A stretch of DNA of 64,000 bases from Bacteroidota bacterium (GTDB taxonomy: Bacteria > Bacteroidota > Bacteroidia > UBA8524), in assembly GCA_016124735.1 (NCBI GenBank), contig WGMZ01000010.1, forward strand, positions 1 through 64,000, read 5' to 3'. The notes under the pieces were generated by a model that had not been told where the DNA came from, ran no database searches, and saw only the letters and a list, made by a program, of their open reading frames with translations. Each line of letters opens with the position of its first letter. Within the stretch, counting starts at the first letter, position 1. The position numbers and the translations under genes were made by a program. Shown here piece by piece: positions 1 to 60,995 of the stretch.

Positions 1-126
1 AAAAGAGAAAACCTTGCAAGATATCTGGCGGAATACTGCTATAAAGTTAACAGGAGATATTTTGGCCTTAATATCTTTGAAAGGCTAGTAAACATAAGTG
101 TTTTGCCTAGTTTAGTGGTAAGTTAA
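1..126 (+). CDS. IS1595-family (ISXO2-like) transposase, C-terminal fragment cut by window start
   Basis: Frame 1 is open from the first base to a TAA at 124-126 and encodes 41 residues. The stretch RYLAEYCYKVNRRYFG followed by NIFERLV resembles the C-terminal end of ISXO2-like DDE transposases, which characteristically carry a YLxEFxYrxNRR segment and then an (L/I)FxRLL motif. The rest of the gene lies outside the window, so it cannot be told whether the element is intact. The right end of the element should lie between the stop and the next gene at 172, but no terminal inverted repeat can be confirmed without the other end. Family assignment rests on a short segment only. Confidence 0.6.
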   Translation, partial: KRENLARYLAEYCYKVNRRYFGLNIFERLVNISVLPSLVVS

Positions 127-171
127 AGGACAGTCATGTAAAATTTTTATACAAAAAAAGAAGGAAATAGT

Positions 172-13571: not shown

Positions 13572-14129
13572 AGATTCGGGGGTCATTCCGAGAAAACTGG
13601 CCAGCTGGTATTGAGGCACCCGCTGAAGCAAATCAGGTCGGTCCTTTTGCAGGTTGAGATAGCGTTCTTCCGGACTGGCTGAGATGAATTTGGCAAAAGC
13701 ATCCTGGGTATACCCAAATTCTGCTTCCAACATCTGCCGGGTAATCTCGATAAGCTGAGGGTATTTTACATACATCATCTCATCCCGTTCCGGATCTCCA
13801 ACCAGCAATACAGAGTCTTCGAGGCATTGCAGGGTACTTTCTGTTTCCTGATTATTCAGGCGAGAGGTGAAATAATTGATGGACTGTCCCTCCGTATAAA
13901 AGGCAATGGTTTTTTCCTCTGCCTCTGCATTCAAGATATATTGCCTTAAGCAGCCTTTGAGAACAAAAAAGCAAAGATGGCAATGCTCGCCCTGCTTCAC
14001 AACAATGCTGTTTTTCGCATAGCCTTTTACCAGCATTTTATCGGCAAGCCCTTCGATCTCTTCGCTGCTGAACTTTTTGAAACTATTAAGAAAATCGAAA
14101 AGGATGCTTTTGTTCGTCGAATCAGACAT
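13524..14129 (-). CDS. Crp/Fnr-family transcriptional regulator
   Basis: This 201-residue protein has an N-terminal cyclic-nucleotide-binding-fold domain (about 15-120, with VVKQGEHCHLCFFVLKGCLRQYI) and a C-terminal winged helix (about 145-195, QYQLASFLGMTPESLSRIKRRV). It lacks the phosphate-binding cassette with Arg (GE.a.l...pR.at) that cAMP receptors have. It probably does not bind cAMP despite the adenylate cyclase gene nearby. Similar Bacteroidota proteins are common and mostly of unknown ligand. Its end overlaps the convergent membrane protein gene by 48 bp. Confidence 0.88.
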   Translation of the reverse strand: MSDSTNKSILFDFLNSFKKFSSEEIEGLADKMLVKGYAKNSIVVKQGEHCHLCFFVLKGCLRQYILNAEAEEKTIAFYTEGQSINYFTSRLNNQETESTLQCLEDSVLLVGDPERDEMMYVKYPQLIEITRQMLEAEFGYTQDAFAKFISASPEERYLNLQKDRPDLLQRVPQYQLASFLGMTPESLSRIKRRVSRSGKHG

Positions 14130-16481: not shown

Positions 16482-16996
16482 TTCATGTGTATCCGTTTAT
16501 TTCCCACCAACCCTTTTTGTTGACGGATTCAAAATCCATTTATCCTTCTTTCTATTTCCTTTTTTTTAGAAAAAAAGGAAGAAAAAAATCGCGCTTGCTT
16601 CCTCAATGACCCACTAAGCCTTCCTCCGCTATCCCGCACGTACGGGATAGCCGCTCCGTCAGGCAGCGGGTGCCCTCCCGACCAATTCGGGACGGATGCC
16701 AGGCGCCTATTGCTTACGCCAGCACATGATCACATCTCAGTCTGTTCGATATAGATAAACTTGGTGCGGGTGGGCTGGCCAAAATGCGGGCCGCGCGTTG
16801 GCGTGATGTTTTTTTAGGGAGGCCAGGTGCAATGGCCGACCGTTAAGAAAAAAACAGAGAGCGGGGAAGCTTATTTTGGCCTTGTTTTTTTGGTTCATTT
16901 TGTATTAAGACAAAATGAACACACAATAAGGAAAGAATATAAATAGGAATTGGATTATTCTGAACACGGCGAAGAGGTAATAGAGCGGAGACTCAT
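16482..16996 (+). repeat. dispersed non-coding repeat, copy A (about 515 bp; conserved core 16546-16937)
   Basis: This aligns in the same orientation with 60437-60944. The core differs by about 25 changes over some 390 bp by eye; the flanks are more diverged but keep the same length. The core begins with a hairpin of TTCCT7 and A7GGAA arms (about 16556-16580) and ends with perfect 11-bp arms GTTCATTTTGT (16893-16903) and ACAAAATGAAC (16910-16920). It also includes smaller palindromes (for example around 16632-16649 and 16676-16692). Single-base length changes in T and A runs between the copies break any shared reading frame, so it is not a protein gene. Confidence 0.85.
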
Positions 16997-17028
16997 GTAT
17001 TACTTAATGTCTTTAACAGAAGTCTCCG
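16986..17028 (+). other. imperfect hairpin at the end of repeat copy A
   Basis: Perfect 8-bp arms CGGAGACT (16986-16993) and AGTCTCCG (17021-17028) are followed by TTTT. The first arm is inside the repeat homology, the second is not, and copy B lacks a matching second arm. Confidence 0.5.
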
Positions 17029-17248
17029 TTTTGATACCACCATGGATTTCTGCGAAGCCATTTTAGCAACTACCAATCAAAGAAGCTTATAGAATTTTTG
17101 GATTGGCCTTCCAGACAGATAGTGCTAAACTCCAGAAGAATCATGGCTTTTAATTTAAATTATACCCAAAATACTTGCAAATATATACATACCTGTAACT
17201 ATAGATTGTTGTTTGCGTCATTTGAATATAGATTTACAAAAACACCTT

Positions 17249-60290: not shown

Positions 60291-60995
60291 AACCCGAATT
60301 TTCCCCAAGATAGAGAAAATGAGTTAAGCGTATGTTATGTACCTAATGATGTATCCTCAACACTGCACTTTAAACTGTAAACCCATTAGAAACTCTGAGC
60401 CGCTCGGCCCGGAAAGCCTGAGCGGCATGTTGAAATTTCATAAGCATCCGTATACTTCCCTCAGTACCTTTTTATGGAAGGATTCATCATTCCATTTTGC
60501 TTCTTTCTATTTCCTTTTTTTAAGAAAAAAAGGAAGAAAAAATCGCGCTTGCTTCCTCAATGACCCGCTAAGCCTTCCTCCGCTGTCCCGCACGTGCGGG
60601 ATTGCCGCTCCATCAGGCAGCGGGGGCCCTCCCGACAAATTCGGGACGGAAGCCAAGCGCCTATTGCTGTCGCCAGCATAAGATAACATCTCAGTCTGTT
60701 CGATATAGATAAACTTCGTGCGGGTGGGCTGGCCAAAATGCGGGCCGCGCGCTGGCGTGATGTTTTTTTTAGGGAGGCCAGATGCAATGGCCGACCGTTA
60801 AGAAAAAAACAGAGAGCGCGGAAGCTTATTTTGGCCTTGATTTTTTGGTTCGTTTTGTATCATGACAAAATGAACATACAATTAAGAAAGAAAGAAACAG
60901 GATTATTCTCGCAAATCAGAAGTGGTCTTGAAGCGGTGACTCATTTGAAATTTACTTTCAAAAACACTCCACTCTCCACACTAAACGCTATTCCA
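60291..60995. other. intergenic region with dispersed repeat copy B
   Basis: About 700 bp with no supported gene. It holds the repeat at 60437-60944 and, after it, about 50 bp of plain sequence to the stop codon of the phosphoesterase gene on the minus strand. An open frame at 60738-61004 lies across the repeat and is not conserved in copy A. Confidence 0.7.
60437..60944 (+). repeat. dispersed non-coding repeat, copy B (about 508 bp; conserved core 60500-60892)
   Basis: The second copy of the repeat at 16482-16996, in the same orientation. It keeps the leading hairpin (about 60510-60533), the 14-base palindrome CCCGCACGTGCGGG (60587-60600), TCCCGA/TCGGGA arms (about 60632-60648), and the closing hairpin GTTCGTTTTGT (60848-60858)/ACAAAATGAAC (60865-60875). 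In that hairpin a G-T pair replaces the A-T pair of copy A, so the stem would still form in RNA. Confidence 0.85.

Follow-up and report, generated by a model that had tools for sequence, protein, structure and literature searches.

MITEs are commonly regarded as what a deletion has left over, with an interior of no meaning. REPs as a rule lie on either side of their transposase gene, and Flavo-1 RNA (RF01705) has been reported in Bacteroidota as a multi-copy intergenic structured RNA candidate. Among the described bacterial MITEs are an IS982-derived one of Cardinium (PMC9769881) and those of Porphyromonas gingivalis (PMC4596501). The IS1595 family, with its DDE domain and zinc finger, typically produces 8-bp duplications (PMC8101967). 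Here, we study a repeat from a 64,000-nt stretch of DNA of a Bacteroidota bacterium (in the following, the window). Its ends and its movement are of a known kind; what is new is its conserved core.

Copies, ends and the related transposase

The original prediction had described two homologous regions of the same orientation within the window, each with two hairpins and without a shared reading frame. This description holds: the regions align in the same orientation with 90% identity over 469 bp, i.e., they are no chance match, both hairpins are present, and the repeat is too short for a transposase ORF and has no frame common to its copies. When the window's own genome was searched (3.11 Mb in 53 contigs), at least 58 matching pieces emerged at about 40 places, a lower bound given that 40 of 74 candidates were scored. 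That is, the genome contains not merely two but about 40 copies or fragments, of which an intact one measures about 510 bp. Within the genome, copies show 78-95% identity to each other, and truncations or internal rearrangements affect many of them; several of the places lie at contig ends, which is where assemblies are broken by repeats.

With regard to the boundaries, the original prediction saw no clear terminal repeats and missed the ends, which are located at 16484/16997 and 60439/60945. Both window copies show imperfect 24-bp terminal inverted repeats (CATGTGTATCCGTTTATTTCCCAC / CATGAGTCTCCGCTTCAATACCAC) and perfect 8-bp target duplications; once copies are oriented, the element spans CATGTGTATCCGTTTATTTCCCAC to ...GTGGTATTGAAGCGGAGACTCATG. 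The flanks noted as more diverged correspond to the sequence that separates the inverted repeats from the core. The features of the window are as follows, where P1, P2 and the pseudoknot strand denote predicted pairings.

1..137, plus strand: 3' end of a second multi-copy IS1595-family element, end GTGGTAAGTTAAAGGACAGTCATG, cut by the contig end
16476..16483, unstranded: left target duplication TATTACTT of copy 1
16484..16997, minus strand (strand of the hairpin-pseudoknot core): MITE copy 1, 514 bp
16484..16507, plus strand: left terminal inverted repeat CATGTGTATCCGTTTATTTCCCAC of copy 1
16556..16580, unstranded: hairpin 2 of copy 1, TTCCTTTTTTTT AG AAAAAAAGGAA, from the alignment of copies
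16777..16785, minus strand: P2 3' strand of copy 1, ATTTTGGCC on the minus strand
16873..16881, minus strand: P2 5' strand of copy 1, GGCCAAAAT on the minus strand
16893..16920, minus strand: hairpin P1 of copy 1, loop CTTAAT, loop-tail pairing degraded, from its self inverted match and the alignment
16974..16997, minus strand: right terminal inverted repeat of copy 1, reverse complement starting CATGAGTCTCCGCTCT
16998..17005, unstranded: right target duplication TATTACTT of copy 1
60431..60438, unstranded: left target duplication TGAAATTT of copy 2
60439..60945, minus strand (strand of the core): MITE copy 2, 507 bp
60511..60535, unstranded: hairpin 2 of copy 2
60731..60739, minus strand: P2 3' strand of copy 2
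60828..60836, minus strand: P2 5' strand of copy 2
60836..60841, minus strand: tail ATCAAG of copy 2, pseudoknot 3' strand, pairing with the P1 loop
60848..60875, minus strand: hairpin P1 of copy 2, loop CATGAT, one change from CTTGAT
60946..60953, unstranded: right target duplication TGAAATTT of copy 2

Reading the flanks of oriented copies, we find perfect A/T-rich 8-bp duplications for eight copies, i.e., the two window copies (L001 TATTACTT, L007 TGAAATTT) as well as L010 (ACAAAAGT), L015 (AAAATCCT), L016 (TTTTTTAT), L017 (AAAATAAA), L026 (TTTATGAA) and L032 (ATATAATT); L004 and L005 match in 7/8 positions. At the orthologous intergenic site of a congener (G001) the MITE copy is missing: 259 bp lie between the same two matched flanks that are 804 bp apart in the window, in a region too diverged to define the exact empty site.

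Searching the genome with the right end reveals an intact IS1595-family element of 1004 bp (C12:22144-23147), with ends CATGAGTCTCCGTTTCCTTACCAC and CATGAGTCTCCGCTAGTTTACCAC and the duplication AAATCCAT on both sides. Its single ORF of 311 aa matches DDE_Tnp_IS1595, Zn_ribbon_IS1595 and NF033547 (PF12762, PF12760 and NF033547 above cut-offs). The earlier statement that transposase genes are absent is thus wrong, as a related transposase is encoded elsewhere in the genome and the first 137 bp of the window are an IS1595 3' end. The right end of the MITE is identical to the two ends of the C12 element in 21/24 and 20/24 positions, where a value of 21 was reached by none of 200,000 shuffles; the best match of its left end (20/24) is the second, multi-copy IS1595 subfamily. 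Given an IS1595 element of the same genome with near-identical ends and an 8-bp duplication, the classification of the repeat as a small non-autonomous transposon, i.e., an IS1595-mobilised MITE, is well supported, and its mobility is apparently driven by an IS1595-family transposase. It is no simple internal deletion of the C12 element, with which it has only the ends in common. Among named elements, an IS1595 element annotated as ISBbi1 on a Bacteroides fragilis plasmid is 41% identical in protein and shows the ends TCTGATTCTCCG / TCTGATTATCCG (also given as TCTGATTCTCCGCAAACACACC / TCTGATTATCCGTTTATGCACC) with the 8-bp duplication AATAAATT. A terminal-repeat scan of about 85,000 GTDB genomes gave seven matches, roughly as many as chance would produce, and neither of the two that were inspected had an element next to it; plasmid and phage collections searched with the element gave no match.

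The multi-copy IS1595 3' end also starts contigs C7, C8, C20 and C53, and at L082 (G000:C32, ~14030-14037) a multi-copy IS1595 element is inserted a few bases past the right end of a MITE. To the right of copy 1 (17021-17057), a second MITE subfamily (end CATGAGTCTCCGTTTTGATACCAC) is represented by an end fragment, which recurs at C19, C34, C43 and C6.

The base-paired core module

The alignment of copies shows that the 28-bp palindrome at 16893-16920 is part of a larger minus-strand module, which consists of P1 (GTTCATTTTGT-CTTGAT-ACAAAATGAAC), CAAAAAATCAAGG and GGCCAAAAT ... ATTTTGGCC. The P1 hairpin loop CTTGAT is complementary to the downstream tail ATCAAG, followed by the long-range stem P2. 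L011 and L023 carry CTTGAA together with TTCAAG, plus compensated stem changes. In both window copies the alignment shows a degraded loop-tail pairing, which is consistent with decay after insertion.

Using one sequence per genome (41 in total) and, as for the loop-tail and P2 statistics below, shuffles that ignore the relatedness of genomes, we find that the covariation of P1 pairs 0, 1, 7 and 9 exceeds all 2000 shuffles and that of pair 8 all but three; T-A, C-G, G-C and A-T forms occur. For the loop-tail pairing we used 31 distinct loop-tail combinations from a pattern with free loop and tail (see below). Here, the inner four pairs are formed in 79/124 cases compared to 60.4 +/- 3.9 with shuffled tails, a value that none of 20,000 shuffles reached. 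Alternative pairs include AAAGAT/ATCTTC and AGAGAT/ATCTTC as well as, shifted by one base, TGTC/GACA and TGCC/GGCA; CATGAT/ATCTAG (two genomes) and CTTAAT/ATCAAG depart from the pairing. P2 was assessed by a strict test for exact complements, which replaced a permissive version (G-U pairs, any register): for 16/41 sequences, compared to 0.27 expected, the eight bases that follow the tail recur as an exact reverse complement at a distance of 20-260 nt downstream. By eye, several lineages also have in common ATGCTTCC..CGC..CTCTG after the P2 5' strand and GGCCCGCAT before the P2 3' strand. Copy 2 is predicted to fold mildly more stably than its shuffles (z -1.86), and a promoter search on the core strand gave none of significance. 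From sequence comparison, we regard the predicted pairing of P1, loop-tail and P2 as conserved, which is well supported.

The original prediction had offered a miniature mobile element, a repeat family or a structured RNA. The first two are established by the inverted repeats, the target duplications, the about 40 copies, the matching IS1595 element and the orthologous site of the congener without a copy; structure gains support from the cross-genus covariation, and an action as RNA is a hypothesis.

Additional palindromes accompany the repeats. A REP-like one (ATGCTGAGCGAAGTCGAAGCAT) lies exactly inside the P1 loop of L009, L013, L015 and L018 and also inside that of L019, L020, L026 and L031, all of them G000 copies. 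Another repeated palindrome (GCTCGGCCCGGAAAGCCTGAGC and variants) is found near MITEs (window ~60400-60425, L055, L073) and elsewhere in the window's genome, too.

Distribution, genomic setting and origin

The pattern CTTGAT-N8-16-CAAAAAATCAAG is present in 28/149 sampled genomes of the class (25/99 genera), with 46 copies in G079 and 17 in G095, while the reversed control never occurs; it is also found in other classes of the phylum. A second pattern, which leaves loop and tail free, matches 56/295 genomes with few control matches. About 20% of the sampled class genomes and dozens of genera in the phylum carry the module.

Sequence matches to parts of the module were obtained in genomes of other families. 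In G079, a member of another family of the class, it resides in an IS1595-like MITE of about 480 bp with ends ACTGAGTATCCGCTT / ACTGACTATCCGCAT and 8-bp duplications (e.g., TAATTTTA, TTATAAAA, TAATATTA); in G292, of a third family, the IS1595-like MITE measures about 350 bp, with ends AATGCTTCTCCGTTT and duplications AAAAGTTT and TAGTCTTA. Scanning for IS1595-like ends around modules (shuffled control: 3/117 loci) found none in G095, G060 and most single-copy genomes. Neither in G079 nor in G292 was an element found that has matching ends and also encodes a transposase; the IS1595 transposases of G079 and G060 gave no matching ends, and no IS1595 gene was found in G292. At L115 (G082:C7) and L116 (G024:C51), the module itself occurs three times in tandem, with a period of about 380 bp.

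Module copies are mostly intergenic. In G095, a stop codon lies 3-20 nt before the start of 5/8 same-strand copies; in G079, 14/20 have a same-strand gene on their 5' side; over the whole copy set, the orientation relative to genes is mixed.

These observations allow for different histories. An ordinary IS1595-derived MITE with neutral filler as interior, recently amplified within each genome and spread by horizontal transfer, would agree with the 78-95% identity and frequent truncation or rearrangement within a genome as well as with the degraded loop-tail pairing of both window copies. We consider it unlikely, since the sequences of P1, loop, tail and P2 differ between genomes yet their pairing is kept and neutral filler would not covary; furthermore, the module lacks visible IS1595 ends in many genomes. 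Alternatively, the module could be a single-stranded DNA signal of an HUH transposase (Y1, REP-associated), i.e., REP/BIME-like, that was later captured by IS1595-type ends. The intergenic, often gene-end positions of its multi-copy palindromes and the separate REP-like palindrome inside the P1 loop of several copies would suit such a signal, but none of 15 Y1 transposase loci from six genomes has the module in the flanking sequence that was retrieved, and the multi-copy genome G283 is without any Y1 gene. The unflanked Y1 genes disfavour a DNA-level Y1 signal, which we hold to be very unlikely; a REP/RAYT identity was rejected on the same observation (0/15 loci).

The module may also be a small RNA or 3'-UTR element in its own right, spread over the whole phylum, that IS1595-type MITEs picked up on at least three occasions; the chance of this stays clearly short of even. 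Such an origin would explain why IS1595 ends are lacking around the copies of G095, G060 and most single-copy genomes, and why several G095 copies begin shortly after stop codons. However, the ends of old copies may have decayed beyond recognition, the many copies in G095 imply mobility of some form, and the whole set of copies shows a mixed orientation relative to genes.

Proposed mechanism and relation to known systems

We assign a probability of about 0.8 to the joint reading of a MITE that is moved in trans by an IS1595 transposase and has a base-paired core kept across the phylum, the module presumably being RNA. The element is a non-autonomous MITE of about 260-550 bp, apparently mobilised by an IS1595-family transposase that may recognise the imperfect 24-bp ends CATGnGTnTCCGyTT...CCAC and leave 8-bp target duplications on insertion into A/T-rich intergenic DNA. 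Within the core, the P1 loop CTTGAT is predicted to pair with the tail of CAAAAAATCAAG into an H-type pseudoknot, which is followed by the long-range stem P2 closing a variable interior. We infer that the module functions at the RNA rather than the DNA level. Its RNA would be made by read-through from neighbouring genes, and the resulting stable 3'-side structure most likely allows the host to tolerate insertions or to benefit from them, which in turn would favour copies that keep the module. We favour, as a hypothesis, a structure that acts at the RNA level on the 3' side of host transcripts. That it represents a phylum-wide, undescribed class of structured RNA (a hairpin whose six-base loop is fully paired, an A-rich linker and a long-range stem) that travels within IS1595-type MITEs and is kept in host transcripts as a functional element on their 3' side is a tentative proposal with odds slightly below even.

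No Rfam family matches at gathering score in the window, and matches at the module in other loci are of chance level only. A search of the open literature, subscription papers lying outside its scope, gave no description of the element. In G037, a Flavo-1 RNA (L050:2194-2269; RF01705, 64 bits) is located about 630 bp from a module copy and not inside it.

Compared to known systems, the repeats resemble Flavo-1 as a multi-copy intergenic structured RNA candidate, but neither Flavo-1 nor any other Rfam RNA family matches the element or the modules of the tested members. If the module is RNA, it would be a common structured RNA of the phylum that Rfam lacks. REP/BIME systems with RAYT (Y1) likewise comprise multi-copy intergenic palindromes; unlike these, the window element has inverted ends and target duplications, and the module is absent from the retrieved flanks of Y1 genes. 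With the IS1595 family (PF12762 plus zinc ribbon; nearest named member ISBbi1), it has in common the TnTCCG signature, imperfect ends of about 24 bp and 8-bp duplications, and autonomous relatives of two subfamilies reside in the same genome; in contrast, the window repeats have no transposase gene, and what they share with the IS is limited to the ends. The repeats also resemble the MITEs of Cardinium and P. gingivalis, which are likewise short, non-coding and present in many copies with the ends of resident IS elements. Here, however, the interior is no IS remnant but a structured module common to different bacterial families. That MITEs of three such families share a covarying base-paired core points to selection acting on the inside of a non-autonomous transposon.
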